Source of the DNA: Liolophura sinensis
Lineage: Eukaryota > Mollusca > Polyplacophora > Chitonida > Chitonidae
Length of the DNA stretch: 64,000 bases
NCBI RefSeq assembly: GCF_032854445.1
Contig: NC_088295.1
Span: forward strand, 18,279,385-18,343,384
Direction of reading: 5' to 3'
Numbering within the stretch: the first letter of the stretch is position 1; each line of letters begins with the position of its first letter. Of the stretch, positions 317 through 57,312 are shown in pieces. A model generated the notes under the pieces. The model did not search any database. It was given only the letters and a program-made list of their open reading frames with translations, and had not been told where the DNA came from. The translations under genes and the position numbers were made by a program.

Positions 317-1408
317 CAAAATGTTAGGGGTGGTTTCTGCATGTATTGAGCTCAGAGTCTGCACACATATAGAGCAGAATAGCATGAGGGGGATATTCCA
401 TCGTTGATTCGGTGTGTACATATTTCGTACCGTAAATTACGGAATTCCTGACTTAGTGTATTATGTATTAGAAGCAATGTTAAAGAAAATGTTAGAGGTG
501 GTTTCTCAAAAAGTACTGCATGTATTGAGCTCAGGGTTTGCTCACCTGTAGAGCACAACAGCACGAGGGGCATATTACACTGTTGACTGGGTGTGTTCAT
601 ATTAAATACCGTAAGTTCATGAATTCCTGGCTTAGTGCATTTTATATTAGAATCACCGTTTTACAAAATGTTCGGGTTGGTATTATAAAAAGTATTGTAC
701 ATGCATGTATTGACCTGAGGTTTACATATGTATAAAGTATAACGAGTTCTTAATGCATTAAGCTGAAGTTCTGCATTCATGTGTCTCAGAGGCGAGTTTT
801 TTTAGTAGCATTGCTACCAATTCTAAATCTCAAACATATATTGATCATGTCATACTGAGCTTTACACACCTTTAAATTTGTTATGCTTGCTAAATCAGGA
901 ATTGCTGAACTAAGCTATGAGTATGCAAGCATTGAGGTTAACCATAAATCCATTAGCTGAATTAAGGCTGGTGCTATCCTCCCCCCTCCCCCCCCCCCCC
1001 CCCCACCCCACACACACAAACACAAGCTTCATTATGCATTCTATCTTTTCATGCCATATATTGATCATCAGGTCTTAATAGAGCTTTGATTGGAAAAAGC
1101 TGTTAAACAAGCTTCTATTCAAACCCACTTTCAAAAGGTGTTACCACAAAGTCCACACAAAGAATAACAGATAACGCCTACATGATGGTTTGTATGCATT
1201 CTACTATAATGTTAGACTAGTATAAACTCACCTCTGATGTCTTGCACCAGTTTCAATACTAAACGATATCAATATAAAAATGTTAGGAAGTGAATCCTAG
1301 CTCAATTACAGTATCATTTATCCTTGTTTACGGACAGCTTAAAAATATAATCACATTTAGGATATGTTTAGCCACAAAGCCAATTAATATTATCAACTAT
1401 GCTAGATT
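317..1408. other. Non-coding stretch with a poly-C tract
   Basis: No convincing ORF is present. Around 325-560 there are two loosely similar copies of a segment with 'gcatgtattgagctcag' and 'gcatattacac'-like motifs, about 190 bp apart, so a small local duplication is likely. A C-rich homopolymer tract lies at about 978-1005, followed by a short CA-rich run. Confidence 0.5.
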
Positions 1409-1703
1409 CCATGAACAAATACATGCTGTTCATACCTGTATGAGGACTACATGACTACATAGTTCACATGAACAAATACATGCTGTTCATACCTGTATGA
1501 GGATTTCATAACCATATAATTCACATGAACAAATACATGCTGTTCATACCTGTATGAGGATTTCATAACTACATAGTTCACATGAACAAATACATACTGT
1601 TCATACCTGTATGAGGATTTCATAACTACATAGTTCACATGAACAAATACATGCTGTTCATACATGTATGAGGATTTCATAACTACATAGTTCACATGAA
1701 CAA
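1409..1703. repeat. 57-bp minisatellite, about 5 copies
   Basis: The unit contains 'catgaacaaatacatgctgt' followed by 'tcatacctgtatgaggattt' and 'cataactacatagtt'. The period is 57 bp, a multiple of three, which explains the apparent 89-codon ORF on the minus strand. Copies are very similar, so the array is recent. I do not regard it as coding. Confidence 0.9.
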
Positions 1704-1774
1704 ACAAAGAGCACATTTACATCATGTATATTAAACTTTTGCAAGAGCAATCTGCATGTGTAAAATGCGTACAG

Positions 1775-3095
1775 GGGTGAACTGTAACATGTACAGGTGG
1801 TCTGACAGGGATGAGCTCTAACATGTACAGGTGGGCTGACAGGGATGAGCTGTAACATGTACAGGTGGGCTGACAGGGATGAGCTGTAACATGTACAGGT
1901 GGGCTGACAGGGATAAGCTCTAACATGTACAGGTGGGCTGATAGGGATGAGGTCTAACATGTACAGGTGGGCTGACAGGGAAGAGCTCTAACATGTACAG
2001 GTGGGCTGACAGGGATTGAGCTTTACACATGTACAGGTGGGCTGACAGGGGTGAGCTTTAACGTGTACAGGTGGGCTGACAGGGATGAGCTCTAACATGT
2101 ACAGGTGGGCCGACAGGGGTGAGCTGTAACATGTACAGGTGGTCTGACAGGGATGAGCTGCAACATGTACAGGTGGGATGACAGAGGTGAGCTGTAACAT
2201 GTACAGGTGGTCTCACAAGGGTGAGCTTTAACATGTACAGGTGGTCTCACAAGGGTGAGCTTTAACATGTACAGGTGGTCTGACAGGGGTGAGCTTTTAC
2301 ATGTACAGGTGGGCTGACAGGATGAGCTCTAACATGTACAGGTGGGCTGACAGGGATGAGCTCTAACATGTACAGGTGGTCTGACGTGTGAGCTGTAACA
2401 TGTACAGGTGGGCTGACGGAGGGGAGCTGTAACGTGTACAGGTGTCTGACAGGGGTGAGCTCTAACATGTACAGGTGGGCTGACAGGGATGAGCTCTAAC
2501 ATGTACAGGTGGGCTGACAGGATGAGCTCTAACATGTACAGGTGGGCTGACAGGGATGAGCTCGAACATGTACAGGTGGGCTGACAGGGATGAGCTTTAA
2601 CATGTACAGGTGGGCTGACAGGGGTGAGCTGTAACATGTACAGGTGGGCTGACAGGGATGAGCTCTAACATGTACAGGTGGTCTGACAGAGGTGAGCTGT
2701 AACATGTACAGGTGGTCTCACAAGGATGAGCTTTAACATGTACAGGTGGTCTCACAAGGGTGAGCTTTAACATGTACAGGTGGTCTGACAGGGGTGAGCT
2801 TTAACATGTACAGGTGGGCTGACAGGGATGAGCTCTAACATGTACAGGTGGGCTGACAGGGATGAGCTCTAACATGTACAGGCGGTCTGACAGGGGTGAG
2901 CTCTAACATGTACAGGTGGTCTGACGTGTGAGCTGTAACATGTACAGGTGGTCTGACGAAGGGGAGCTGTAACGTGTACAGGTGTCTGACAGGGGTGAGC
3001 TCTAACATGTTACAGGTAGTCTGACAGGGGTGAGCTCTAACATGTACAGATGTCTGACTGGTGAGTTATAACATGTACAGGTAGTCTGATATGGG
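1775..3095. repeat. 34-bp minisatellite, about 38 copies
   Basis: The unit is about 34 bp, with core 'acatgtacaggtgggctgac' followed by 'agggatgagctcta'. Copies vary mainly at 'gggctgac/ggtctgac/ggtctcac' and 'gagctc/gagctg/gagctt', and a few have short deletions. Short minus-strand ORFs rich in C-Q-P-T-C-T-C and V-S-P-P-V-H-V are by-products. There are no unique spacers, so it is not a CRISPR array. It lies 3' of the PDZ-gene exons and so could be in an intron of that gene. Confidence 0.95.
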
Positions 3096-5649
3096 CGACA
3101 GACCCCTGAATCAATCTAGCTAGGGAAGCTAGGCAAAATCTCCTATATACTACCTAATTACCACTGGCACTAAATAATTAATCTGATCGGCCCAGGTAAT
3201 TAGGAACGACTACTCCAGCAGATGTATTAGCCATTGATTACAGGTTAATCAGTTAATACACACATATAGAGATTACAGAGCTGTATGCCTGAATACCTAT
3301 GGGTCAAGGCGAAGACCCCTACAGCTAAAATCTGTCAACAATTGCTGCTGTTTCATAATCACAAGAGTTGTGACATTCCATAAAAAGTGGATGACTAGGT
3401 AACTTTAACATAGAGCTGATTTCCACACCTAAGAAGTGGAACTAACCTGTAGTGGTTGTATGAAAACAGCTTCATCTATGTGATTCTGATACAGGTACAT
3501 TTGTACAACGTTTTCATTTATTTAATTATTTACTTCATGTTTTAATCTATACTCATTAAGATTTCACTTAAATGGTCATGTTTGCAGGAATTGATTTTTC
3601 CTTGTTGTCATAGCCTGTCATTAAAGGGGCTTTACTGGAGAATTAGAAACAAAGATCAGCGCAAAATCCAATCAAATATTTGCTGTTGTTTTCGAATAGC
3701 TAAATTAATTACCTTTCACAAAATATCAGCCTCGTCATGTGCACATGTATTAACCATTCAACACTGATAATTAAGTTCTTAAAATTTATAAAAAGAGTTG
3801 CACTGTAACTGTTTTAAACTTTAGAATATTTTTAACAGTATAAATATTACAGATACATCTGATATCTGAAAGGCAATAATTCTATTCTTTGTAAACACAG
3901 GAAATTTCAGGTGATTTCACTTGCTTTGCAAATACAAATTTTAAGATTATTAAGCAATACAGGTATAGTAAGCGACATCTATGTAAGTATTATGGATAGT
4001 AAAAGTTGGACATAGCTTTAGGGGAACCCCCATGCCAGGCTTCATGTACCAAACTAAACTAACGATTTAAAACTGTATCCCACAAGCCAGCACAAGTTAG
4101 ACATTAAGTATGAACCATGTAAGCCACTTTGTTTGGGAATAATTGTTACAACTGAGATACATGTAAGACACTGACTGGCCAACAATCTGTAACAACTGAT
4201 TTGAATTAACTAAATTATAAACTAAATGGTTAACTAGATAATATGTGGCATAATTATTACTTTGAAGTTAAATATAAATCACGTGCATATCTTGCACTTG
4301 TAGATCCGACATTATAGATCTGTCATTCTGTACATTTATAGATTTCTAAATCAATAAATTGATAAATAAATAATAACTGAGCAATAAATTTACATTTTGG
4401 ACTTTTTTCCACATTATAATCTAACTACAGTGCATTAACTGAAATGTCAGTTGGCCCAAAATGGAATTAAAGTATCAAACACTTCAGATACAAGTGGTCT
4501 TTGCTATGTTCATCATCTAGATGAGCTGTGAACTGTTAACATCCATAGGTAATGCTCAACACTGGAAACAAGCACATAAGCATGTAAGTGAACATCATCA
4601 GCTAAGTCTATACACTAAATCTTAATAATATAATTAAATAATTAATCTTGTAATATTAAATCTATTACAAGAACATACATATTATAACTATGATCTACAT
4701 GTACAAATAGAAATTGTGTCATATACCGATCGCTTAGTCCATGCATGCTTCAGCATTGTACCAAACACTCCAGCTTTTCTACGTGTGAATTGGACACTAT
4801 GTGAAACCACGTACACATATCTACCTATCTGATCAGACATAAGTCACATCTGCATCAATAATACGCAGGGATTTCTTCCTTGTACAGATCATAGTCAGAG
4901 ATGTGTATACCTGACAACGGTTGCCTGACTCAGCCGCGCAACAAACAGGTAAAGTATATAGGTAACAGCTGTTCTGCATGGTCCCGTCTTTTCTATAACA
5001 CACAGGAATTGAAATTTTAAAGATTTTTCATATTTTCGCTGTGAGAGATCTGGCGGGCCGTGTAGTAGCTGAACACTTCTGTGGTGATCAATGCCGATGG
5101 GGAGTTGCTCTTAAACCACTGAGGGTGGGGAAAGTGGGCGGGGGGGGGGGGGGGGGGATAAGGGTCCAGCTGCTAGGTGGAGCTGTCAATATATGTATGC
5201 CGGCGTGTTCATACAGCAGACTGGATACATACACTTGTCAGTCATATCATAAGTGTATGACTATGAGTCATTAAGGCCTCTTCATGTGTAAATATCACTG
5301 ACAGACTGATTAGTGTCAACACAATGAAGTATGCTAGACGTACGATGATGATGATGATGATGTTCACACCACAGACAATGTTCATAAAATACATTACTTT
5401 TTTGCAAAATTTCATTCCTTTATTCATTTGATCCCTGTTTAATGCCAGTCTCAAGGATTTTACACTTTTACAGTGATGTGCAGATATGCACACCATATTG
5501 GCGGAAGACAAGCAGTCTATAAAAAACATAAGACTATAAAGCAAACGACCACATGAGTATGGTCGACCGCTTCTTGTCAGCAAGGTCCCCCGAACAGTGA
5601 GAGTGGGGGAATATATGCAGTACAGTTGTACACGTACAATACAACTATA
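3096..5649. other. AT-rich non-coding stretch
   Basis: No exon could be recognised on either strand. A (gat)n microsatellite lies at about 5344-5363 and a G-run at about 5140-5157. This would be intron or 3' flank of the minus-strand PDZ gene if that gene continues leftward. The 145-codon minus ORF at 5242-5679 has no recognisable domain and runs into the adjacent minisatellite. Confidence 0.5.
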
Positions 5650-7060
5650 TAATATGGCTGACACCCAGGTCTCCTTCACATGTATATTACTGACACTCTG
5701 GTCTCCTGTATATGTATATGGCTGACACCCAGGTTTCCTCTATATGTATATTACTGACACTCTGGTCTCCTCTATATGTATATGGCTGACACCCAGGTCT
5801 CCTTCATATGTATATGACTGACACCCAGGTCTCCTTCACATGTATATGACTGACACCCAGGTCTCCTTCACATGTATATGACTGACACTCAGGTCTCCTT
5901 TATACATATATGGCTGACACCCAGATCTTCTTCACATGTATATGGCTGACACCCAAGTCTCCTTCACATGTATATGGCTAACACCCAGGTTTCCTTCACA
6001 TGTATATGGCTGACACCTGTCTCCTTCACATGTATATGGCTGACACCCAGGTTTCCTTCACATGTATATGGCTGACACCCAGGTCTCCTTCACATGTATA
6101 TGGCTGACACCCAGGTTTCCTTCACATGTATATGGCTGACACCCAGGTCTCCTTCACATGTATATGGCTGACACCCAGGTCTCCTTCACATGTATATGGC
6201 TGACACCCAGGTCTCCTTCACATGTATATTGCTGACACTCAGGTTTCCTCTATATGTATATGGCTGGCACCCAGGTCTCCTCTATATGTATATGGCTGAT
6301 ACCCAGGTCTCCTTCACATGTATATGACTTACACCAAGGTCTCCTTAACATGTATATGGCTGACACCCAGGTCTCCTATATATGTATATTACTGACACCC
6401 AGGTCTCCTCTATATGTATATGGCTGACACCCAGGTCTCCTCTATATGTATATGGCTGACACCCAGGTCTCCTTCACATGTATATGACTTACACCAAGGT
6501 CTCCTTAACATGTATATGGCTGACACCCAGGTCTCCTATATATGTATATTACTGACACCCAGGTCTCCTCTATATGTATATGGCTGACACCCAGGTCTCC
6601 TCTATATGTATATGGCTGACACCCAGGTCTCCTCTATATGTATATGGCTGACACCCAGGTCTCCTTCACATGTATATGGCTGACACCCAAGTCTCCTTCA
6701 TATGTATATGGCTGACGCCCAGGTCTCCTTCACATGTATATGGCTGACACCCAGGTCTCCTTCACATGTATATGGCTGACACCCAGGTCTCCTTCACATG
6801 TATATGGCTGACACCCAGGTCTCCTTCACATGTATATGGCTGACACCCAGGTCTCCTTCACATGTATATGGCTGACACCCAGGTCTCCTTCACATGTATA
6901 TGGCTGACACCCAGGTCTCCTTCACATGTATATTGCTGACACTCAGGTTTCCTCTATATGTATATGGCTGACACCCAAGTCTCCTTCATATGTATATGGC
7001 TGACACCCAGGTCTCCTTCACATGTATATGGCTGACACCCAGGTCTCCTCGATATGTAAT
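5650..7060. repeat. 32-bp minisatellite, about 44 copies
   Basis: The unit is 32 bp: 'ctgacacccaggtctccttc' followed by 'acatgtatatgg'. Variants alternate between 'ttcacatg' and 'tctatatg', and a block of several units around 6290-6480 is repeated around 6460-6600, a sign of array-internal duplication. The array ends about 250 bp from a PDZ exon and so is probably intronic or 3' flanking DNA of that gene. Confidence 0.95.
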
Positions 7061-7306
7061 CCTATACTTCATGTATGATGCACACAACATAGGCTATTCA
7101 TACACCCGAAGGACGTAATTGTCTACAACTTCACAGAGAAGTTGATTTACATCTACAAGTATATCTGTTGTAATCTGAGATAAACACATACGTGTACTTT
7201 CATTCTGAATACTCCAACAATATTCCAAGATCCCTTTGTTCATAACACTGTACTGTAATAAAATATAACTGAATAGAATGTAATCTGGTTTGTGCATGTA
7301 ACCAAC

Positions 7307-7491
7307 CTTTTTGTACAGCTGTCTAGCTCTGTGAACTCTGACCTCTGACCTCAGGTCAGAGGGAATGGCCTGAAGGTTACGACCCACAGGAATGAAGAAG
7401 AGGCTGACACGTCTAGAGCGTCCATCCAGGACTTCCCCCAAACCATCCAAACTCTGTACAGGGTGACCGTTTACTCCAAGGATTATGTCCC
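7307..7491 (-). CDS. GRID2IP: PDZ gene exon B (second half of PDZ2)
   Basis: The acceptor is ctccacag|GGGACATAATC. The exon codes for DIILGVNGHPVQSLDGLGEV and on to NLQAIPSDLRSEVRVHRARQ, completing PDZ2 and a short basic linker. The right-hand limit (7491) is secure. The left-hand limit is a proposed donor, AAAAAG|gttggt, which is a weak match to consensus; reading on gives a short low-information tail to a stop near 7094. Confidence 0.8.
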
Positions 7492-8701
7492 CTGTGGAGA
7501 TAATATTTAAAATATCTCAATACCATAACACACAGGTATCTGTATTTTTGATCATTATTATTAATGGTATTATATGTAAAGGTTATTATGGACAAAGGCA
7601 ATTTTAAAGTCATTTAATTATGACACATGCAAACCATGGTTTACACAATCATTTATAATAAGTTTCATTTATAATTATTATATAAAGGAAGATTGATCAA
7701 ATAGCAGAGGTAAAGGCTTTTTATGATGCTTATAATGTCTGAATGTGGCTTCTATGTTAAATACTTCAAATTATCCGAACGTGTCTGAAAGGATTGTAAT
7801 ACAAATGTTGAAGTGGAAAGGGGCAGGCTCATTGGTGTAAATATACACATTTGATTTATTTATTTATTTGATTGGTGTTTTATGCCATACTCAAGAATAT
7901 TTCACTTATACGACAGCGGCCAGCATTATGGTGGGAGGAAACCGGGCAGAGCTGGACTTGAACTCACAGCAACAACACTGGTCTTAGTGTGTTAACCAAC
8001 TGAGCCACAGAGGCCCCCTATATATGTTTGAAGACAATTTTGTGTTTTGCATGACAATCTCTAGAGTTTAGCAGTTCCTAGCAAAGCCTGCAAACATCAA
8101 AATAACTTCATACATATCTTTATTTCTGATGAAGGTAGAAACATGGATAAAATGTGAAGCAACAGACAGTAAAAATTAGACAACAGTATATTTCTTGCAT
8201 TAAAAACACAAACAGCTACAAGGAGGCATTTACTTGTTACAGAAGAAATCTAAGCTAGTTGATTCTGCTTTTTATCTGTAATGGCAGCAACAACCAGTAA
8301 TATTCCTACAGAAAGTCCTTTTATTTCTGCATACCTTCAGCTAGTCCTGATTTAGCTGCTGGAGTACCAGGCTCGATCTTTCCAATTATGATCGGATGGT
8401 CGTCACGGACACTGAAGCCGAATCCCTTGATAGGGTCAGGTGACATGTTCACTTGGTGTAAGTGAGAAACAACGCTCAGTGTGGGTGGTTGATGCCGACT
8501 CTTACGAGCAATTGTCTTGACCACATCAGCAGGGGTGCTCCTCACATCCTCCTGATTCACACCCAGAATGTGGTCCCCGGCAAGTAAACCCGCCCGATCA
8601 GCACTTCCACCCTTCTCCACAGCTGTCACGTAACTTGGGCCACGACCTGCGATGTCGAAGCCAAACGCTCGCGGCCACTTCCCAGTCATTATGAGTGGCA
8701 T
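7307..8701 (-). CDS. GRID2IP: Delphilin-like PDZ scaffold gene (GRID2IP-like), partial, two exons seen
   Basis: Two minus-strand exons, 8701-8335 and 7491-7307, join in frame (GAA G|GG) across a GT-AG intron (8334-7492). The product begins near MPLIMTGKWPRAFGFDIAG and has two adjacent PDZ domains. PDZ1 covers roughly residues 6-80 (WPRAFGFDI carboxylate loop, GGSADRAGLLAGDHILGVNQ). PDZ2 covers roughly 89-165 (KGFGFSVRD, PGTPAAKSGLAEGDIILGVNG). The WP-x-x-FGF start and the AGL-GD-IL pattern match, as I recall it, the N-terminal PDZ of delphilin, the scaffold that binds the C-terminus of GluD2 and also carries an FH2 domain in vertebrates. The remaining exons (linker, FH2) are expected at lower coordinates and are not seen; they probably lie outside the window. 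PDZ identity is near certain; the delphilin assignment is good but not proven. Confidence 0.8.
7492..8334 (-). other. Intron of the PDZ gene, containing a SINE
   Basis: A GT-AG intron of 843 bp, phase 1. It holds one complete-looking SINE (7855-8019) and otherwise AT-rich sequence. Confidence 0.8.
7855..8019 (-). repeat. tRNA-derived SINE with tRNA-like head
   Basis: Read on the minus strand, the copy starts GGGGGCCTCTGTGGCTCAGT (A-box-like TGGCTCAGTTGG), then GAGTTCAAGTCCAGC (B-box-like), then the conserved tail domain ending in (AAAT)n. It is deleted internally between the B box and 'gctctgcccggtttcctccc'. This is the best copy in the window for showing tRNA ancestry. Confidence 0.85.
8335..8701 (-). 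CDS. GRID2IP: PDZ gene exon A (PDZ1 and first half of PDZ2)
   Basis: Codes for about 122 residues starting at the ATG on 8701-8699. The donor GAAG|gtatgc is at 8335/8334 and leaves one base of a glycine codon. The frame stays open a few codons upstream of the ATG to a possible acceptor (aacag) near 8714, so the exon could begin there instead. The ATG aligns with the delphilin long-form start as I remember it, which favours it as the initiator. Confidence 0.85.
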
Positions 8702-47268: not shown

Positions 47269-48553
47269 TGTTAGAGCTTTAAGATCGGATATTTGTCAGG
47301 TCCCTATAGCTAAGGTTGGTGGCTTACTCTACCTATATACCTATTCCCCATTATATAAGTGACAGAATCTTCCAACCTCTTTTCGGCTGCATTGGGAACC
47401 ACCTTGAATGAGAAAGAAATTTGGTTTCTCCCGAGTATGCGCCTAGAATTTGCCTCGTCCGTAAGCTCCCATACAAATAACTTACAACAAGGTTGAACTA
47501 TTATTTCAAGATGACAAAAATCAGAAAGTAATATCTGAAGCCATTTTCAGACAATCTGAGCGAGAGCCTACAGAGGGAAGTAAACTGTAACATTGTACTC
47601 TGTTATCCTTGATGATCAGAGTTGTTTAATTAATACTCATGGATCTAGCCTTGGTTGCAGGCGTGACGAACCAATGGATTCTGCGTGCCATCGTTTGTGT
47701 AAATGTGCACTTATCGTTGATCTTGATTCTCCACTTGAATAAAATAAAACCGTTTGGTCACTGTTAACTCTGTATAAAGCCAAACAAATTACCTCTTTTC
47801 TCCTTTGAAGTGATAAACTGAAGTGCAATGTAAAAACAACCGTAGGCAGCTTATACCGTGAGCTTAAGGAGACAAAATCAGGTGGCCTTGAATGCAGGCA
47901 GTTGCAAATTAATTGTGGTAAGTGTGTGGGAGCTTAAGAACGTGAGGTCCAAAACGGATCTCGGGACGTGCGTGTTTACGCGAGAGTTTCATTTGACACA
48001 AGAAAGGAAAGCTTGAGTCACGTAACTAGCCTCGAAACCGATGTTGTTGCCATCTGTGTGAAATTTTGTAAAAAGGGCAAAAACGGGGAAAAGAAGAGCT
48101 GGTGAGTGGGATTTTTTATGTCTCAATAAACCTGGATGTACGCTAGAGATATCTTGCACAACTTTGGGATGGCTGCGTGATTTATTTTTGAAGATATTTA
48201 CTGATAAATGTCCTCAATCAGAAGATCGATATTTTAGAATATTGTAACTCCGGCGGCGCTTACGGCGCCACTCCAAGTAGCAAGAGGTACATTATTGCAA
48301 CTGGTATTTCATGAGCTGACCATACTGCTGACTCTCCAGATAACAGCAATCTCCCTACCATGTACAGAAACCACTTACATATCGCCGGCGGAATTCGTGA
48401 ACAATACCAAAGTATATATGGTGACACTGAGTAAAGGAGAGTCAGGTTACTTAAGACAATTAGCGAAAAAAGAAAACATTGGCGGAGAACAACATACACG
48501 GTTTAAAAGTTAACATTAAATAAGTGTTCAAATATCAGTATGCGGATACTTGC
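47269..48553. other. Unassigned DNA with a short relative of segment family R
   Basis: At about 48300-48350 'catgagctgac' ... 'ctgctgactctccagataac' matches 30470-30510 in R1 and 36735-36775 in R2, so part of the R family lies here. No gene. Confidence 0.4.
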
Positions 48554-48724
48554 GGATCGAACAATAACTAAAACAAATGCCACAACAATTTTATTGTGTA
48601 ATAAGGTCATTTAAAATGACAAATTTATTAAGAATTTAGTTACAGAAAAATAAAAGTAGAAATGAATTTAGTATTTTAAAACTTGGAAATGAAATCCGCA
48701 AAAGTTGGGGGCTAAAAAAGAGGC
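48554..48724 (-). repeat. Split direct repeat B2
   Basis: Shares 'gaacaataactaaaacaaat', 'aatttattaagaatttagtt' and 'tttaaaacttggaaatgaaa' with B1 at 50076-50257, same orientation. Confidence 0.9.
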
Positions 48725-48864
48725 AAACTGAAGACACAAATTTAAACCATCACACCCCCAAGGGAGAGGGGCTGGAAAATTTCTTTCACCCAAACCACGC
48801 CTTACCTCCCTGAGAGAAAATTTTGGAAAGGCCACAATGAAGCCACACTGTCTTCTATATGCTA
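48725..48864. other. Retroelement 3' non-coding sequence
   Basis: Part of the segment between A2 and B2, left of the solo LTR. No other feature. Confidence 0.6.
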
Positions 48865-49835
48865 ATATTGTTATGTATGACTATTTAACGTTTTCATGTA
48901 CTGTTAGTCTGCGGACCTTTGTGAAAGCATAACAGGCCCTGTTATATGTGTACAGCGCGGACCGGATAGAAAGCACCCTGTTCAATGCTTCGTTTATTTC
49001 ATTGGCTGTTAATTCTGTGTTTAAGAATAGTTGAATCCACCTGGAACGTATATAAGCCGTGTTTTCTGTGCAGAGAGGAGGTATTTTTGCTGTCCATTAT
49101 ATTGATATGAGCTGGTGATGCCAGTTTTGTTTGGGAGGACAGATTTCTATGCCGGCACCGTTTGTGTACCACAGTTGTACTGATGTCTGGTTTAAGTGAA
49201 TTTCTGTGGAAGTCACGTTTATTGGTGTTCGGATCTTTATTATGATTATACAGTGTTGACTGTGTAATTTGTTTAACACGCTGACCTCACCTGACCGACA
49301 AGGTCGTCACGGACTCTAAACTGAAGTTTTCACTCCAGTGTTGCAAAGGACGTTCGTTCTGCCACAAGGTGACATTACTCTACGTCTCTAAACGGCTCGT
49401 TTGTGAGTTTCTGCGGGAGCTGTGACTGTTCTAAAGTGGATTATACCTCCATGCCTGGATTTACCCTGTGTTGTGCTCTGCGGGTGTGACGTCATTCAAA
49501 GGCTTGACTGTTCCAGTTGTGTGTAACCTGTGTACTGTGTTCGCGTTCGCTAACCTAGCGAAGTACCTGACTAGGACAATTTGTGACTTGTGTGAATTGT
49601 GTGTTTATCCCATGGTCTTTACGTTGGATCTCCTGGAATACGTTCCTTGGGATGCAAAGGTGAACTGGAAACTTTTAAAGACCGGTAATACTGATGTGTA
49701 TGTTTTTTTTATGTTGTTGTTGTTGAACTGTCTGTAAAACTGTACGTCTCATTTTATATATAAAGCATTGTTTACATTGTAATATTGAGTCACTGAGTCT
49801 GTTTTCTGTTGCTGTTTTCAATACCGTAACAATAT
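48865..49835 (+). mobile_element. Solo LTR, 963 bp, with 4-bp target duplication
   Basis: The LTR runs from TGTTATG (48869) to CCGTAACA (49831), with short inverted ends TGTTA/TAACA. ATAT duplications lie at 48865-48868 and 49832-49835. A TATA box (TATATAA, 49049-49055) sits about 180 bp from the left end, with cagagaggag just after as a possible start region, which fixes plus orientation. No internal coding sequence remains, so it is a solo LTR left by recombination. Family (gypsy or BEL) is undetermined. Confidence 0.85.
49049..49055 (+). promoter_or_regulatory. TATA box of the solo LTR
   Basis: TATATAA in the context 'ggaacgtatataagccgtg', placed as expected at the U3/R boundary. Confidence 0.7.
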
Positions 49836-49924
49836 TCACCATAGGGATGAATCCTGCCATGTGATCATCACTAGTGATGGTGCACAGAGGTTATCAGAAC
49901 TCTGTCAACTCATCCAAAGAAGGG

Positions 49925-50043
49925 GAGATCACTCCCACAGGGGAGACCACTTTTCCAAAGGGAGCGCAGATCTAGAATCAAACATTATGAAACGATAATT
50001 TGTCCACACATAAAAATCATTATAGCCTGTCTATAATTTGTAT
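49925..50043 (-). repeat. Split direct repeat A2
   Basis: Shares 'ctcccacaggggag', 'aaacattatgaaacgataat' and 'ttgtccacacataaaaatca' with A1 at 55651-55766, same orientation, about 90 percent or more identical by eye. Confidence 0.9.
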
Positions 50044-50075
50044 CTATGTGCAGACGAAATTGATCAGAGACTTAC

Positions 50076-50257
50076 GAATCGAACAATAACTAAAACAAAT
50101 GCCACAACAATTTGATTGTGTAATAAGGTCATTTTTTAAAATGACAAATTTATTAAGAATTTAGTTACAGAAAAATAAAAATAGAAATGAATTTAGTATT
50201 TTAAAACTTGGAAATGAAATGTTAGAATCCGCAAAACGTGGGGGCTAAAAAGGAGGC
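50076..50257 (-). repeat. Split direct repeat B1
   Basis: Partner of B2 (48554-48724). It lies only about 32 bp from A2, as expected for the B1-A2 junction of split-repeat elements. Small indels (for example a 6-bp 'gttaga' present only here) separate the two B copies. Confidence 0.9.
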
Positions 50258-51339
50258 CAAAGATAACAGGAACCGCTATCACCCCACCAAAAGTCTCTGA
50301 TCAATTGAGCTATATAGACGTCAAACACCTTTGTTTGATTCAGGTTAACAATGAAAGCACAATACATGCTTGTAACCGTCATAGGAGCTGTCAAGTTCTG
50401 GCCTCCTATCGAAAAGTCCGATCTGTAACGAACAATACAACATATCATAAAACATGACATGGAATTCAGGGAGCAAAGATGAACTAAAAGTACAAATAAC
50501 ATTTGTGTGGATTATCACATACAAAGGATAGCCCCAAAATTTAGCATTAGCTAGAAGAGATTCATTTAAATGTAGATACTGGTCACCTAAGGGTTGTCCC
50601 CAAAAAAATGTCACCAGCTTACCGTATATGTAGGGGAAGAACTGCAAAATATTGATTATGAATCTCTCAGAGCAGTCAAGTACTGGTCCCCCTGGAAATT
50701 CCCAATAATGCGATTCTCTCTAATACGTATATTACAAATAATTATCTGAGAGAAGGCAAGTAACTGGCCTCCCAGCACATCACTGAGAGCAGTCAAGTAC
50801 TGCCCCCCCCCCCCCCACCCCTCGGAAATTCTCAACAACGCAATTCTCTCTAATACATATATTACGAATTAAACAATACCTGAGAGCAGGCCAGTACTGG
50901 CCTCCCAGAACAACTCCACCATGTAAGTTCACTCTTACTAAAAATGCCACATGTATGATATTAAAACTCGGCTAGCGGTCAAGCACTGGCCTGGTTGAAA
51001 TTTCAGACTGAATGCCCAAGTGACATCCTCCAAACACCAACCTTCGATAATGAAATATGGATGTATAACTAGTTTAACTATCAAGACCGGCTTCCCATGT
51101 AAGAATTTTCTGACCCTTCCTGTCCAGATAACACAATATATTTACAACAGTAATGGATAATAATGCACAACAGCAGGCAGTCAAATTCTGGCGCTACTGA
51201 AAAGCATAGCGTAACAAAGTGAACCATAAGCCATGAATGTCTTACCAGAACAAAAAGGTATGCTGTTTGAGCGGTCAAATTACTGGCCTTAAGAACTCAA
51301 GTCACTGGCCCCAGGCATTTTGCTATAAAACTGCTCTGA
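50258..51339 (-). other. Retroelement 3' non-coding region with internal duplications
   Basis: Contains a ~80-bp segment repeated at about 50663-50740 and 50787-50869 ('ctctctaatacgtatattac'), and many copies of a motif like 'gcagtcaagtactggcc'. A C-run is at about 50802-50816. No ORF of interest on either strand. Confidence 0.6.
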
Positions 51340-51900
51340 CTAGTTAATTTTAATTTGAGAGAAAACATTGATGCGTATATATTGCTTTAATGCATCAGAT
51401 TTCCAACGACCCAGTTTACGAATCACAGTTTCTGGAATACCCATAGAGGCAGCCCTTGTAGCGGCTCCAATACGGAAACTGTGCCCTTTGTACTGTTTTG
51501 TGTCAAGGACATTGAACTTAAGCGCTGAATGTAATGTGCTGCAGAAATGTTTGTAGGTAACAGGAGCCCCAGAGCCCAGCTGGAAGAGGTGGCCCTCAGA
51601 GGGCCTACAATTTTTCAGGTCTCGTACAAGGCAAAGATCGGGGTTTTCTGAGAGTCACAGATTTATGCTAACCGGGTGAGAGTTACTGAACTTGAAATGG
51701 TGAATTAAAACTGTTATGGATGAGAAGCCGCTTGCAGTTGAATGAAAGGTGATGTCTTTTCTCTGCAGAACTTTGTCTTTTGCATCGCATGAATTTTGTG
51801 ACACTGCAATTTCACCAATGCACAGAAAGGCATGAAGTGCAAGGAGGAACTTTGCTGTCAACAGGGACCGATATGTGTATAAAGGAATAACATGTGGTAA
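51340..51900 (-). pseudogene. Tyrosine recombinase of the retroelement
   Basis: One minus-strand frame with a single TGA at 51657-51655. It reads TAKFLLALHAFLCIGEIAVS near the start, then GHSFRIGAATRAASMGIPET and VIRKLGRWKSDALKQYIR, ending at TAG (51342-51340). The H-x-x-R box (HSFR) and the tyrosine nucleophile (QYIR) are present. The first catalytic Arg, expected in FLRIGE, is Cys here (FLCIGE, codon TGC), consistent with a CpG-type CGC to TGC transition. The enzyme would join the circular cDNA to the target; this copy is dead. Confidence 0.9.
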
Positions 51901-51962
51901 AGATGTTACTAAGTTGTGAAGTATTCTAGAGTGATTGGCAGATGGATGTCTTCAGATGGTTT

Positions 51963-52658
51963 TCAAGCTCGTGCTCCTTTATAAAATTTATGAATGTAAA
52001 AACAGTTGGTAGGGTCTGTCAAGTGTCTCACTTTATGCACGAAAGATATAGTCGAGATGTGTGAGCAGATTGTAGCTGCACCGCGGTTGTTACGAAAAAG
52101 AGTCATAATAACAGCGCAGGCAGATGATGTTTTGTTCATTATCCCCACAACAGCCGCATTATCTGTCATGAAAAGAACTAAAGCTAGAACAATTGGGAAA
52201 AGTTCTTTTGCTGCTATACTCTGAGTAGCCATGTTTTTCCATGGACCTACCCACAAATGATTTTCAAAAACAGCCGAAAATTCATTGCTCCAAGCTGCAT
52301 ATGTATAAAGCGTTATTGAGTCAGATGATGCCCACTCAGAAAAAAGGAAGCATACCTTACCATTGAAGTTGTTAAGAAATGACAGCCAAGCATCAATATA
52401 TGCTTTGACATTATTGCTTATTGGAATGTGATGATGAGGTTCAGTAACAGCAATTGTAAGGTTCTGCAGACGACGCAAGAATGATCTTCCGGGAATGATG
52501 ACTGAGCAGCAGAAATTTAGGTAGCCAAGAAGAGATTGAAGCTCTACTAGGGTCACATCTTTGCCATACTTAAACTTAAGAAGGAGATTTTGTGCCTTTT
52601 TATAGCTTTTCCTGTGGTAAGCGGGCCTCCATCTTATCAGAATCAATCCCAATTCCAT
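51963..52658 (-). pseudogene. RNase H region of the retroelement
   Basis: The frame overlaps the RT frame by a shift near 52610. LVELQSLLGYLNFCCSVIIP and GRSFLRRLQNLT form the RT-RNase H connection, followed by LYTYAAWSNEFSAVFENHLW, ELFPIVLALVLF and MTDNAAVVGIMNK. In related elements the first is LYTDAAG, so a catalytic Asp is replaced by Tyr (codon TAT); the TDNAAVV Asp is kept. Confidence 0.85.
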
Positions 52659-53307
52659 AGACTTGACCTACAGTTTTAGAGATTAAAGTTTTAAAATGTT
52701 TTATGGGAATACCTATGTGTTCGCATAAATTAATAAAGTTGAGGATGTCGGTTGTGCGCTTCCTTGAATTCGCTGGGACTAGAAAAACAAAATCATCCAA
52801 CAGGCCCGGCATAGCAGTCACATTGAAGTGATGCTGCATGATCCATTGAAGCGAACAACTAAGAATTTCAAATATTTTGCAGGACGATGATGTCCCCATT
52901 GGTAGGCATTTATCATAGTAATATTCATCTTGCCAAACAAAACCTAAAAAGTGATAGTCTTCTGGATGGATTGGAATTAAACGGAAAGCATGTTCAATAT
53001 CTGCTGTGGAAATGAGGCAATGTCTGTCTTGTTGTTGGACTAGAGAAATAACTTACCCTGTGGAATCATACTGCACTTTGGAGAATTCTTTTGGTATATG
53101 TGTATTGACAGATTGATCTTCAGGAAAAGATAAGTCGTGAATTAGACGAAATTTACCAGCTTCCTTCTTTGGAATCACTCCAAGTGCAGAACAGATTAGG
53201 TTAGAAATAGCTTTTTCAGAAAAAGGGCATGTAATCCTGCTTATACATACCTCTGCTATAATTTTGCTTTCGACATGGTCTGAATGTAATCTAGCTGATG
53301 CTGGCAA
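52600..53307 (-). pseudogene. Reverse transcriptase of the retroelement
   Basis: One frame interrupted by a TAA at 53055-53053. LGVIPKKEAGKFRLIHDLSF, then STADIEHAFRLIPIHPEDYH (motif A Asp), LGFVWQDEYYYDKCLPMGTS, and PGLLDDFVFLV at the catalytic YxDD position (LLDD), then GIPIKHFKTLI. These are characteristic of DIRS/Ngaro-type RTs. Both catalytic Asp positions look intact; the stop and the frameshift at its end inactivate it. Confidence 0.9.
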
Positions 53308-54230
53308 TTTGGTGTGTCACACTTTCCTGCTCTACAGTATTTCCAACAGTATCCAAGTGGGAACTTTCTACAGGTTTAAAGAGAGTCGAAAATTGCCGTT
53401 TTTGGCTGAGTTTATTGAAGGTGCAGGTGAGGTTTTTAAAGAGCACAACTTCCAGAGTTCATCATGAATTTTGACCCAGGGCAGCGGTTGTAATACGCGC
53501 AATTTGCGGAAGTTTTCGTCATTATACTTTGCAGCAGGAAACCCCAAGTGTTGGCTTACAAGTTTAACTGTGTTGCCATACTTTATGAGACTGGGCACTT
53601 GATCTAAAAACCATGTTGCGTATACAGAAATAAAGATATCGAATACCTGGGACCACTGACCTATGTGAATAACATCTTTACGACTAGGTGTTGAAATGTT
53701 TATTTGTGACCCATCAGATGATAGTTTAAGAGAAGGTTCATCCGACGGACTGAGGAGCTGACTGAAGTTGATGTACTCATTGGCGTGTATCTTGGCTCTT
53801 ATTGAAGCACTTACATTGAATGCTAAAGGTAATGACGAGGAAAGGAAACCAGTTTCACAAATATCTATATCTAGTTAAAAATAGGAGTGAACAGAGCAAT
53901 GCAACTCGAAGATATCTCACCCAGTAGGTCAGCTGGGTCCTGGCTGATGAGTTGACTGCACTCGGTGGTGTAGACTCAGCAACGACAGAGGATGCCTGGG
54001 GTGGGGGCCGCAGGAGCTGACGGGACTCAAGTAACACCTCCGCCGCAATGGCATCAAAAGACGGGCATGCACATGATGTGGTTTGAGTGGTGCTAGGAGG
54101 AGGGGTAGGTGGCTGACAACACCATGAGGGGCTGCGCTAGGTCCGGGCCCGATTGGACCTGGTTGCCACTATTGAGGCAGCATCCGGTTTAGGAGGCGTG
54201 GTGTAAGATCTGAAAAACACTAGAATACAA
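53264..54230 (-). pseudogene. gag-like region with CCCH zinc finger
   Basis: A frame at about 53840-53368 reads IRAKIHANEYINFSQLLSPS, IGQWSQVFDIFISVYATWFL and LRVLQPLPWVKIHDELW, a conserved gag-like domain found before the RT in this element class. After a frameshift, 53370-53264 reads FPLGYCWKYCRAGKCDTPNC then QHQLD, a C-x3-C..C..H-type zinc finger. Upstream (54.2-53.9 kb) is a Pro/Ser-rich stretch (RPPPQASSVVAESTPPSAVN). The start codon is not determined. Confidence 0.7.
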
Positions 54231-55022
54231 AGCAAGAGAGGCAGCGTGAAGGTACTACATGTATGTGCAATAAAATAAAATTAGGCAGCAGACCATTATT
54301 CAGAGTATAAATGAAATTATACCACTGCCATATGTGAGTTACTTTTATACATGTGTTAAATTTCATTTGAATAGCTATTATAGCATAACACTACACGGCC
54401 GGAACAGCCATGTGTGAAATTATATTTAAAAATGAGTTAACTGCATACAGGTTACAGATTATATAATAAGTCAATTAAATATATGGCACATAAGGCAACA
54501 AATTTAAAGATCAATAAAAAAGGCCACGTACTAATACCCGTTTCTGCATATTCCCAAACAAATAACACCGATAGCACATGAACATAATAATATTGTCCTG
54601 AAAAGCACGATAAGGGGCCTACTGTGCCCAAAAGCACAAATGGGCACAATGGTCCATAGTACACACAATCATACAAACTGAGTCTTAGGTTTTGTAACCA
54701 ATAATCGGGCCAACCTGCCTCAAGACTCGAGGCATTGCCTCAATGAAACTAATCGTCTCAATTGAAAGTGTGACCTAAGTATAGCGCAAGTGCCTGTGCC
54801 GTGGATGCCAAATCATAGGGTGACACACCCAGGTTGGGGTAAAGAACTCACAATAAGTTCAGGGTATCAGCAAGCAAAATTAGGCCAACAGGTTGAGCCA
54901 AATCTATTAACTTATATACATAGTCAAGATTTAAATCAATATAACTGGAACCAATGCAGCCAACATCCAACAGGGAAATCAACTTGAATATTTAATACTA
55001 ACAGAGCACTAATATTATTTTT
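54231..55022 (-). other. Retroelement spacer between hydrolase and gag-like ORFs
   Basis: AT-rich; no domain recognised in any frame. Confidence 0.5.
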
Positions 55023-55469
55023 TTAGCCCTTGCGCTTAAAATGGCCAATGGCCCTGCGCACACTACAGGTGCATTTATACATGTCGTCTGGATTCAGGTG
55101 CACGCCATCTTGACTTAAAACTTGCGTTCAATAAGTGGGCTAAGTGTTCATTAACACAAACAACGTTGTTCTTGTAATTTGGAGGTAACGACTGGGAGCA
55201 TCGCGGGAGTAACTAACCAATAATAATTATAATAATTCGCAGCCAGCTTTAGATAAGTCATTTCCACCAAGCTGGAGAAAAACGGCATAGTATTTACATG
55301 ACTGTGTGCCAGATATCACAACCTGCAACGAACGAGACCCGCGGCGCACGGACCCTTCCGGTACTCCCAGAAAGTCCACCTGGATACGGGTCCCGTCGAG
55401 GTCGGCATTAACATAGTTCTCTAACCGAGAGATAAATGAATGGCCTGTTATTAGAACTCGAAATACCAT
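55023..55469 (-). pseudogene. SGNH/GDSL-type hydrolase of the retroelement, frameshifted
   Basis: Begins MVFRVLITGHSFISRLENYV: GHSF corresponds to block I (the GDS serine). FLGVPEGSVRRGS lies in the block II region, and VFLQLGGNDLS is block III (G-x-N-D). After a frame change near 55220 the minus strand reads DGVHLNPDDMYK, block V with the Asp and His of the catalytic triad, to a stop at 55025-55023. All four signature blocks are thus visible, but not in one frame. SGNH hydrolases act as esterases or lipases; their role in retroelements is unknown. It lies between repeat A1 and the gag-like region, so it is the element's first ORF. Confidence 0.85.
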
Positions 55470-55650
55470 GTTTCTAACAATAATAATATCAGAACCAAAG
55501 TAAAACAGTGGATAAACTTAAAGAGGGTGAGATTAAAATACCACAACTGGCAAATAAAAAAATGGTCCGTAGCACTTGTACGGCCGTAGACTAGTATAAT
55601 ACTAGTAGACTGTAGCTGTGGTAGAAAGAGAAGGCTACGTTGAAGAAGCG

Positions 55651-55766
55651 GAGATAACTCCCACAGGGGAGCCCACTTTTCCAAAATTCCTGATCTAGAA
55701 TTAAACATTATGAAACGATAATTTGTCCACACATAAAAATCATTATAGCCTGTCTATAATTTGTAT
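55651..55766 (-). repeat. Split direct repeat A1 (5' end of the element)
   Basis: Partner of A2 at 49925-50043. It marks the right boundary of the retroelement. Confidence 0.9.
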
Positions 55767-57312
55767 ATTTAATAGATTGTTGAACTCTTTGTCTTTCAAA
55801 CTGGCAATATTTCAGGTTACGGTGATATCAGTTGACCCATCGTTGTTGAGCTAGAATATTACGAGATAGCAAGAATATCAGGTTGGTACAGGCTTGATAT
55901 TTATTGAAGACAAGGGACATCGTCAATCAAAATCACAAGCTCTCTGTGAGGTAATTATTCTGAAATGGCTTTCTCTTAAAAAGAGATTGATAGCTTTCTG
56001 CTGTTGAGATGCATTTTATCTTCAGAGCACTCTGTCTTCCTCAGCAAACGTGGGGCCAGCAACAACATCTCTGAGAATTGTCATCAGAACGCATGCGTGA
56101 GAATTGAAAGTGGGGGGTCTAAACCAGATCAATCATTGTTCATTATGTAACAATTACCTAAAAAATCTGTCTGATTATTTATATGTGACATCCATTGAAC
56201 ATGTGGTTTCAAATGTATGCAGGTGATTGTTAAAATTAATAGGGCTAAAGCTTTATTTGTCTTTCACTCTCACGTAATTCATTTAAAACCTCATTTAAAA
56301 TCATGCAACAGTTATATAAGATCATTTATCACAAGTAATAATTACTTATGGAATATTGCCTGTTCGGAGGAGCACCTGGTGAACGGCAATTATCTGAAAA
56401 GACTTTAGGTGTGTAACGGTTTCTTGACATATGGCTAAAGTGTATTTTTGTATCAAATCCTGCCTTAGCCATATTGCATGAGGGTTTATAAGGTGCTATT
56501 ATTTCAGCATTTAATATAACAGAATAAAACCCAGACTGATGTTTACTGATTTCACTGGTTGTGCGTGTCCATTTGTCAACTATCACATCGGTGGTGTACT
56601 TTTTCGCATTTCTGATTTGTCATTATTCGAATTTGTAATAAGGCAGCTGTTATGTTAGCAGATTGTGACGGGACAGGGGATATTAATTGAACCTAAATTG
56701 TCGGTGACTTAAGGTCGAGATCGTGATTGGGTGGAATAAAGCACCAGATCTCACACATGTACTCATTTTACATAAGGAATTATCTCACAAGGGGCGTTCT
56801 TGTCTACACAAAGTGGAAGGCCTATATGGATATGGATTATTATTTGACAATGGAATTTTTTTTTTACACCAAGTTGTTTTCCTAAGGACTCATAAACATT
56901 CTAATAACTACTATAGAAAACTTTATTTCCGAACAAATTTCCAAAAATGTCTGACGCATTTCAAATATTGTGTAAATAATTAATTTTCCTTGAATGAGTC
57001 CAATGTCAGCATCAATGTTCAACACAAAGATCCAGTCATCTGTCCTCTATCTTCACCTTGATGTAATTTGGGTTCACATAAATTGTGACTCGCCTTTTCC
57101 TCCCTACTGACAGGGCACTGTGCACGACAGGGCCTGACTTATTTTTTCCTCACCATTGTCAGGCCACTGTGCAAGACAAGGCGGCCTGGCGTCACATGTA
57201 TTTTCTTTCGCAGATACGTTTTACCTTACACACGCATTTCAGAAGTTCACTGCACATTTGACCAAAGATATTGTCTCATTTATTTCACTGATGTCACTGG
57301 ATTTTTTCAATT
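55767..57312. repeat. Segment family R, partial copy R3 (left part)
   Basis: At 55985-56040 'gattgatagctttctgctgt' ... 'tctgtcttcctcag' matches 37944-38000 in R2. At 56240-56275 'gctaaagctttatttgtctt' matches 38182-38205. At 56650-56720 'ttagcagattgtga' and 'cggtgacttaagg' resemble 38590-38650. No gene recognised; about half of the stretch has no identifiable relative here. Confidence 0.45.

Follow-up and report, generated by a model that had tools for sequence, protein, structure and literature searches.

A putative Ngaro-like tyrosine recombinase retrotransposon with an SGNH hydrolase gene upstream of gag in Liolophura sinensis

Results

Features of the locus

The window analysed here, 64,000 nucleotides of Liolophura sinensis DNA, carries between positions 55766 (approximately) and 48545 a broken element with the order A1 - SGNH hydrolase - gag - reverse transcriptase (RT)/RNase H - tyrosine recombinase (YR) - B1 - A2 - B2 (Table 1). 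An earlier note, made from the sequence alone, had described the repeat blocks as A1, ORFs, B1, A2, B2 in one orientation, and all four are recovered by sequence match. The strand of that first reading has to be corrected: the element lies on the minus strand. With a probability of roughly 0.8, we consider the locus to be a Ngaro-like YR retrotransposon copy that is old and inactivated. It would belong to a clade in which the hydrolase, where detectable, is an SGNH esterase/lipase-like gene lying 5' of gag; a separate group of the same genome has a related gene 3' of YR. Other loci of the same genome are labelled L001 to L052, and the window copy WIN.

Table 1. Position, strand and supporting evidence of the features identified in the window
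Feature	Position	Strand	Evidence
A1, 5' terminal repeat	55643-55766	-	repeat comparison, genome matches
N-terminal part of SGNH hydrolase with GHSF and GGND blocks (open fragment of 96 aa)	55227-55517	-	homology chain to PF13472
SGNH hydrolase, C-terminal block DGVHLN (separate open fragment)	55026-55127	-	hydrolase HMM, E-value 2.3e-6
Hydrolase-gag interval, about 0.8 kb without recognised coding, 3' end splice-acceptor-like TTTTTCAG	54200-55025	-	DNA matches
Gag-like ORF, broken, partial CCCH finger at end	53297-54199	-	pieces common to L001-L004, L020-L022
Reverse transcriptase, broken	52600-53316	-	RVT_1, E-value 2.7e-5 for 52600-53052; homologues
RNase H region (assigned only by motif and position) with YR N-terminal part, broken	51963-52667	-	matching L020 stretch
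Tyrosine recombinase	51340-51951	-	Phage_integrase, E-value 1.4e-3 for 51340-51654; L020 comparison
Noncoding 3' region containing short direct repeats	50261-51339	-	repeat and copy comparison
B1, including 23 bp to A2 junction (core block 50067-50260)	50044-50260	-	repeat comparison
A2	49917-50043	-	repeat comparison, genome matches
Solo LTR of another element, outside the Ngaro-like element	48869-49831	.	ATAT on both sides; absent from L001, L002, L020
B2, 3' terminal repeat	48545-48727	-	repeat comparison, genome matches

Gag and pol regions

RT and RNase H are followed by YR in the same direction, the RNase H being assigned by its position and by motifs characteristic of this domain. The RVT_1 and Phage_integrase matches in the window are both below the Pfam cut-offs. 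L001 exhibits an RVT_1 match (E-value = 2.9e-5), and L020 a Phage_int_SAM_4 match (E-value = 3e-5) in the stretch matching the RNase H/YR N-terminal region of the window. No Pfam RNase H match was obtained in the window, L020 or L038. Of the characteristic YR motifs, HxxR and Y are kept, and the first-box R reads C in the window copy. The start codon position of the window gag reads ACG and its finger is only in part preserved; by eye, the gag of L001 and L020 exhibits a full CCCH plus CCHC-like finger, for which Pfam gave no match. The arrangement described in the earlier note is confirmed.

DNA matching the hydrolase-gag interval is present in L002, L003 and L004, and partly in L020-L022. 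Its splice-acceptor-like motif TTTTTCAG was found in both the window and L002, that of L004 being TTTTTCAA.

Terminal repeats and integration core

A1 and A2 share 93.5% identity over 124 aligned bases, and B1 and B2 95.1% over 183. Exact direct repeats in the span reach 64 nt, whereas none exceeded 17 nt in 100 simulations under a first-order Markov model. Both repeats recur across the genome, the search for further copies that the earlier note proposed giving at least 25 matches each (the window's own included), and all four blocks are also present in L001. The A repeat extends about 170 bp further as a leader in L001, L002, L020 and L021; the window A1 is without it. The B repeat runs 23 bp beyond the block first described, so that B1 adjoins A2 with no gap; at the window B2 these expected final bases (about 23 bp) are unrecognisable. 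No inverted repeat pair of 20 bases or more, and thus no DIRS-like inverted terminal repeat, was found in 47800-56600.

In other copies the 5' end mostly reads AAAT|ACAAAT. AAAT immediately precedes ACAAAT (GCAAAT in L009) in 13 of the 17 outer 5' ends, 10 of the 16 outer 3' ends have it after the end of B, and L001 and L003 each contain it once at their B1A2 junction. The window copy breaks this rule at both outer ends and reads AGAT at its B1A2 junction. The AAAT core common to the termini and the B1A2 junction of other copies is as expected for YR circle integration: a short core matching the circle junction, without variable target duplication. A and B repeats do occur apart from the coding region, an observation that the earlier note would have held against its own reading; they are accounted for by solo A-B units found elsewhere in the genome.

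The A2-B2 stretch of the window is split by a 963-bp solo LTR flanked by ATAT on both sides, which is a later insertion. This LTR has 42 matches among those listed, its own included (40 of 770 candidates being scored), and a true long spacer between A2 and B2 is rejected, the gap containing this LTR.

Identity and past constraint of the hydrolase

All three SGNH blocks (catalytic S, GGND-type N and D..H) are present in the window, on two open fragments; the residues are named after the available parts of PMC5408684 and PMC3905857. No Pfam SGNH match was obtained for the 5'-type pieces searched, the window hydrolase and its nearest homologues among them, a direct match above the cut-off being found only in the homologues L036 and L037. 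The assignment follows a homology chain from the window to L028 (E-value = 3e-12), from L028 to L031 (4e-29), from L031 to L036 (3e-11), and from L036 to PF13472 (1.2e-11). A search of the PDB with the hydrolase alignment gave 2vpt as best match, at an E-value of 0.42.

In four cross-family hydrolase pairs pS is saturated (0.72-0.83) and pN ranges from 0.22 to 0.48, the pN being somewhat lowered by finding and aligning the sequences through protein similarity. The same-family comparison WIN-L004 gives 0.24 versus 0.27. Two low-pS pairs, L031-L033 (pN 0.205, pS 0.163) and L031-L040 (pN 0.091, pS 0.114), are without constraint and are read as within-family decay. These codon comparisons indicate that the hydrolase was under purifying selection between families in the past and has decayed near-neutrally within the family of the window. 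A chance ORF is rejected on the evidence of the four cross-family pairs together with the profile match of the second block; the window N-terminal piece was among the seeds of the hydrolase HMM and the C-terminal block was not.

Position of the hydrolase across the genome

Wherever a listed hydrolase has an RT or YR match within 6 kb, its side is constant: the 5' type lies 5' of RT/YR in 10 of 10 places (12 of the 22 listed 5'-type places having no such match), and for the second type all 19 of 19 places have it 3'. In L028, L032 and L034 the hydrolase stands 5' with gag only. The diverged relative L024 exhibits the order A-like repeat - hydrolase - gag - RT - YR - B-like - A-like; a 60-nt repeat (85%) precedes its hydrolase and recurs after the B-like block, and its second A-like repeat weakly matches the start of A (E-value = 0.03). 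B2 was not found in L024. Self-comparison of 17 further stretches, which are short and from old copies, revealed a fitting pair of split repeats in L024 only.

A tree of RT/RNase H/YR (30 loci, 549 columns), built from loci of this genome alone, separates the 5' and 3' groups with labels of 98-100; the split has labels of 99 and 75 for RT/RNase H alone, and of 100 and 47 for YR alone. The suggestion that a hydrolase directly after A1 defines a distinct lineage is therefore supported within this genome, by the tree split and the constant positions alike.

As to whether the hydrolase is always 5' of gag, it is never 3' of RT/YR in the 10 5'-type places with such a match within 6 kb, and it is missing from L001, L020 and L021. 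Such copies, named beforehand as evidence against the lineage, are explained as internal deletions nested inside a hydrolase-bearing family. The deletion junction of L020/L021 is at an ATTTGT microhomology and that of L001 inside gag; splicing is rejected as their cause, the junctions not being at donor-like or acceptor-like motifs. The hydrolase is also undetected in six of the 20 rows of the 5' clade (L022, L025, L027, L048, L049, L050), L048-L050 having been fetched blind to its presence. Because of these six rows and the three deletions, we regard the hydrolase as dispensable or often lost in the 5' clade.

The same absences are what one would expect if the hydrolase were foreign to the element, an SGNH gene captured or inserted once upstream of gag in one ancestral copy and passively amplified. 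However, a hydrolase lies 5' of RT also in the diverged relatives L023, L039, L040 and L041, whose RT pieces are 48%, 49%, 48% and 41% identical to that of the window, and the four cross-family pairs show constraint. Its occurrence across families largely refutes a single passive capture, which we hold to be very improbable.

Discussion

Ngaro-like classification

The earlier call of a Ngaro/PAT-like element is upheld. The split direct repeats A1-ORFs-B1A2-B2 are those of Ngaro-like elements, and Ngaro is a better fit than PAT, a search with PF05869 having revealed no Dam-type methylase. This search of the genome gave 0 matches with a positive E. coli control, although a diverged DIRS methylase might escape the model; the pol region exhibits no PAT-like methyltransferase, and in L020 the gap between the last two RNase H/YR pieces before YRa is only about 330 bp. 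The assignment as Ngaro-like is by structure, the trees comparing loci of this genome only. A Pat1-like PAT element that has lost its methyltransferase would share the zinc-finger gag and the split direct repeats, and the available text of PMC4157794 views a Caenorhabditis briggsae lineage as Pat1 with such a loss. Against this origin, which we judge improbable, stand the lack of any PF05869 match in the genome and the other YR group of the genome, in which the hydrolase follows YR just as it does in Xenopus Ngaro (PMC9210276, available part).

Origin of the two hydrolase positions

The 5' position may be secondary, the same gene having moved when a 3'-hydrolase-type element permuted its gene order. 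One profile detects both hydrolase types (one 3'-type sequence being among its seeds) and the hydrolase tree is compatible with such a move; in the same tree, however, the six 3' rows cluster together on a long branch with a support of 100, and the 5' rows are diverse. We rate this permutation slightly below even odds. Alternatively, and more tentatively, SGNH genes might have been recruited at both ends, 3' of YR in one clade and independently as first ORF in a separate one. If true, a membrane-acting enzyme would have been recruited convergently to particle assembly, gag might be expressed via a spliced RNA, and the first-ORF SGNH would occupy the gag-side position taken also by the LINE ORF1 esterase.

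Proposed mechanism

For the Ngaro-like element of the window we propose that a full-length RNA from A1 to B2 would be packaged by gag and then reverse transcribed, the B1A2 block serving, as in the published model, as a template that joins the ends into a circle. The YR would recombine the B|A junction of the circle with a genomic AAAT, so that both ends retain AAAT and a variable target duplication is not produced, a step that the termini of other copies support. The hydrolase, if the LINE ORF1 esterase is a guide, most likely serves the gag particle as an accessory, either an acyl-esterase or a lipid-binding one. Being the 5'-most ORF, it could, speculatively, be translated from the unspliced RNA, and gag perhaps from a spliced one.

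Significance

Hydrolases of unsettled role are found repeatedly as accessory genes of LINEs, Penelope-like, LTR and YR retroelements (PMC5408684, PMC3905857 and PMC9210276, in the parts available). Front-hydrolase and back-hydrolase clades in one genome offer a natural contrast in which to study whether position follows expression with gag and whether there were two gains of the hydrolase. Its position also serves as a structural marker to subdivide Ngaro-like elements.

Comparison with known systems

Like the window element, PAT/Pat1-like elements have split direct repeats and a zinc-finger gag, and encode a methyltransferase (PMC4157794, available text), which was not found here with PF05869. 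The ORF1 of ZfL2-1 and other LINEs, which stands ahead of pol where a gag would be, contains an SGNH esterase, and the ORF3 of rotifer LTR elements an SGNH hydrolase; both belong to other element classes (PMC3905857 and PMC5408684, as far as available). In ZfL2-1 the SGNH domain is within a coiled-coil protein, whereas the window element has it as a separate reading frame.

The Ngaro elements of Cafeteria burkhardae likewise exhibit the arrangement A1-[ORFs]-B1A2B2 and isolated AB repeats akin to solo LTRs, and some of their copies are without ORF1, as some of the window's family are without hydrolase (PMC8547959, available text). Unlike in the window element, a hydrolase is not mentioned in the main text of that paper.

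Within the same genome, the 3'-hydrolase elements (L038, L043-L047, L051, L052) likewise have RT followed by YR and a related SGNH hydrolase, and L038 a zinc-finger gag by eye. Their hydrolase directly follows YR and they occupy a separate branch in the RT/RNase H/YR trees, unlike the clade of the window; the stretches fetched for L038 and L043-L047 revealed no split repeats.

The Ngaro-like elements DIRS-53_XT and DIRS-54_XT of Xenopus likewise combine an SGNH hydrolase ORF with ORFs for a gag-like protein, RT/RH and YR, DIRS-53_XT also having split direct repeats A1...B1, A2, B2 (PMC9210276, available part). The earlier note's contrast, that hydrolases of described Ngaro elements lie elsewhere, is borne out for amphibians by the same source: in Xenopus the ORF follows YR, in contrast to its place between A1 and gag in the window element. 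The position after YR is not required in Ngaro, as far as the available literature goes, and a search that did not reach the founding papers found no published Ngaro with a 5' hydrolase.

Structure of the window element

The Ngaro-like tyrosine-recombinase element of the window exhibits four repeat blocks, all in a single orientation. Fragments of a hydrolase, gag, reverse transcriptase (RT), RNase H and tyrosine recombinase (YR) lie in the A1-to-B1 interval. Across 124 aligned bases A1 shares 93.5% identity with A2, and across 183 B1 shares 95.1% with B2; the order A1, ORFs, B1, A2, B2 given in the earlier note is confirmed. An exact direct repeat of 64 nt is the longest present, whereas 100 Markov simulations gave none beyond 17 nt, and the repeat comparison of the element reported no inverted pairs. 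RNase H has no Pfam match in the window or in the related loci L020 and L038; we take the fragment for RNase H only by its position and motifs. The gag zinc fingers, recognised by eye, have no Pfam match. Since stops and shifts break its reading frames, the window copy looks dead.

Features of the window element
Feature	Window position	Strand	Basis or remark
A1	55766-55643	minus	repeat comparison
Hydrolase C-terminal block, DGVHLN	55127-55026		profile of eight hydrolases, E 2.3e-6
B1	50260-50067	minus	repeat comparison
A2	50043-49917	minus	repeat comparison
963-bp insertion	48869-49831		begins TG, ends CA, ATAT on both flanks
B2	48727-48545	minus	repeat comparison

The A2-B2 gap measures 1.2 kb only because of the 963-bp insertion, which is absent from the copies L001, L002 and L020. 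Among its 42 listed matches (its own included) are pairs on contigs C4 and C5 that share a strand and lie about 6 kb from each other; we therefore interpret it as a solo LTR that derives from a high-copy LTR element and sits within the A2-B2 stretch.

Other copies in the genome

The surrounding genome (609 Mb, 632 contigs) contains at least 25 matches to the A repeat and at least 25 to the B repeat. Fifty-four stretches were fetched, three of them contained within others. A second copy with all four blocks (L001, 4.8 kb) lacks the hydrolase and the gag start. L002 reads A1-hydrolase-gag-RT-YR-B with a single B, and hydrolase and gag are also present in L003 and L004, whose 5' ends are rearranged or missing. 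The L003 copy (605-8370) has its interior inverted between the outer A start and the outer B end; in its 3' noncoding part (1808-3405), matches recur every 87 bp, which points to expansion of a tandem array with an 87-bp unit.

L005-L014, ten stretches of 1.0-1.3 kb, exhibit A then B without any of the coding pieces tested and without B1 adjoining A, and are accordingly solo A-B units. Isolated AB repeats are likewise described for Cafeteria Ngaro, and attributed to recombination between 5' and 3' repeats (passages in PMC8547959). Recombination between A1 and A2 would yield the A-B units of this genome, and between B1 and B2 the ends with only one B seen in L002 and L022. On contig C1 (47.67-47.85 Mb), six A-B pairs of the same orientation are spaced 31-39 kb from one another and separated by RT fragments of YR elements; one pair (L013) was read. 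Large segments duplicated in tandem probably account for this arrangement.

In L020 and L021, the leader that follows A is joined to the stretch ahead of gag at an ATTTGT common to both sides. Junction and 5' flank are the same in both, which are therefore one event, an insertion duplicated with its surroundings. The two lie on contig C13 at 5.10 and 5.14 Mb, 39 kb apart. In L001 the leader is joined to the interior of gag. The earlier note had held that A/B repeats apart from the coding region, or copies without the hydrolase, would speak against its reading. Both occur, the former as solo units; the latter (L001, L020, L021) we read as losses, because they nest inside the hydrolase-bearing family, with inner branches weakly supported. 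ORF1-deleted copies are also described in Cafeteria Ngaro (passages in PMC8547959).

Position of the hydrolase

The position of the hydrolase differs by clade: 5' of gag/RT (5'-type) or 3' of YR (3'-type). From matches to 5'-type queries, 22 places were compiled by hand with fragments merged, excluding one 3'-type match and those that identity (26-41%) and query range led us to take for LINE type (L036 and L037 checked). RT or YR matches lie within 6 kb of the hydrolase in 10 of the 22 and are absent in 12; in each of the ten, the hydrolase lies on the 5' side of them and shares their strand. The 3'-type query L046 gave 35 matches, merged into 24 places; RT or YR is found within 6 kb in 19 (none in five), always with the hydrolase 3'. 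The hydrolase also precedes gag in L028, L032 and L034, where no RT was found. In the diverged relative L024 a 60-nt A-like repeat is followed by hydrolase, gag, RT and YR; next come a B-like block (E 1.7e-8), a stretch that weakly matches the start of A (E 0.03) and a second 60-nt repeat, 85% identical to the first; B2 was not found there. Given this order, the hydrolase sits between A1 and gag in L024 as well.

Among twelve loci (L043-L054) picked by RT and YR matches, hydrolase disregarded, seven have it 3' (L043-L047, L051, L052) and in five it was not seen (L048, L049, L050, L053, L054). L048-L050 belong to the 5' clade, so this unselected sample alone contributes no 5' case. Tree rows consist of residues aligned to window pieces, with a bias toward the window's side. 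The RT, RNase H and YR tree (30 loci, 549 columns) splits into 20 and 10 loci, with labels 100 and 98 on either side of the midpoint root. The larger side holds ten 5'-hydrolase rows, three deletion copies, one fragment and six loci without hydrolase, the smaller one eight 3'-hydrolase rows with L053 and L054. The labels are 99 and 75 for RT/RNase H alone, and 100 and 47 for YR alone (22 loci). In the hydrolase tree, six 3' rows group with 100, as does the window family; the deeper order is poorly resolved.

Identity of the hydrolase and selection

Neither the window hydrolase piece nor its nearest homologues have a Pfam SGNH match. The piece matches L028 (E 3.2e-12), L028 the L031 hydrolase (E 3.9e-29), L031 the L036 hydrolase (E 2.6e-11), and L036 is a PF13472 Lipase_GDSL_2 protein above the cut-off (E 1.2e-11). 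Judged by sequence homology, this chain connects the window hydrolase to an SGNH family. Among PDB entries, 4c1b, a protein encoded by ORF1, matches L036 best (E 0.005). GHSF and GGND are present in the N-terminal fragment of the window.

Pairwise pN/pS of the hydrolase (11 pairs; WIN, window copy)
Pair	pN/pS	Remark
WIN-L028	0.344/0.718	
L028-L031	0.224/0.767	
L028-L033	0.269/0.774	
L031-L023	0.475/0.828	
WIN-L004	0.236/0.269	same family
L031-L033	0.205/0.163	no constraint
L031-L040	0.091/0.114	no constraint
WIN-L002	0.208/0.45	24 codons only
L046-L052	0.062/0.072	3'-type
L046-L038	0.067/0.067	3'-type
L036-L037	0.010/0.026	LINE pair

The first four pairs indicate constraint, at saturated pS, and hence past selection on the hydrolase. 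The low pS of L031-L033 and L031-L040 suggests that L031, L033 and L040 are one family. As to its role in the element, an SGNH hydrolase adjoining gag could, by analogy, act like the LINE ORF1 esterase.

L036 (1612-5110) and L037 (1637-5209) each carry a LINE-like unit, for which L037 gives RVT_1 at E 3.5e-38 and RNase_H at E 2.8e-15. Downstream of it, an SGNH hydrolase is encoded in its own open ORF of 214-242 aa, and the hydrolase query matches include many of this kind. This downstream hydrolase is of interest because LINE esterases are described in ORF1 (passages in PMC3905857). The unit shared by the two loci terminates in about 52 bp (L036 5056-5107, L037 5152-5206) that match, in inverted orientation, the beginning of the solo LTR in the window. 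Five listed solo-LTR matches begin at 221, four of them starting about 0.8 kb after hydrolase matches, possibly reflecting repeated insertion of the LINE into an LTR matching that of the window.

Termini, integration and expression

At the outer 5' boundary, 13 of 17 rows have AAAT immediately ahead of ACAAAT (GCAAAT in L009), the exceptions being the window copy, L006, L010 and L012. At the outer 3' boundary, 10 of 16 rows have AAAT after the B end; here the exceptions are the window copy, L002, L005, L010, L013 and L015. L017 and L018 have a common flank and represent a single duplicated insertion. L001 and L003 have CACAT-AAAT-ACAAATT at their B1A2 junctions, with AAAT once; the window copy has AGAT in its place. 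This core, common to most termini, is consistent with a circle junction recombining with a short identical target. It is comparable to the 3-bp junction of DIRS1, whose circle recombines with an identical target without target duplication (passages in PMC3266345). Reverse transcription through the repeats would produce the circle, as in the published model that PMC6681497 mentions for Ngaro and PAT, and YR would integrate it into the genome.

Donor-like GTGAGT occurs close to where A ends (in L001 both A1 and A2, in L002 A1, in L003 A2), and acceptor-like TTTTTCAG (window, L002) or TTTTTCAA (L004) ahead of gag. These motifs are a faint sign that spliced RNA might serve for gag expression.

Comparison with known elements

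PF05869 has zero matches in the genome. The window element exhibits the structural marks of Ngaro, namely split direct repeats and RT with YR, without methyltransferase (passages in PMC4157794 and PMC3266345). A Pat1 origin with the methylase lost is less probable but conceivable, since the zinc-finger gag of the window element also marks Pat1 (PMC4157794, in part). The literature searched, with founding papers and Repbase outside its scope, yielded no description of a 5' hydrolase in a YR element; given that scope, an earlier description is possible. According to the earlier note, the hydrolase lies elsewhere in described Ngaro elements. This holds for amphibian Ngaro, where the Xenopus paper (PMC9210276) places it after YR, whereas in the window element it lies between A1 and gag.
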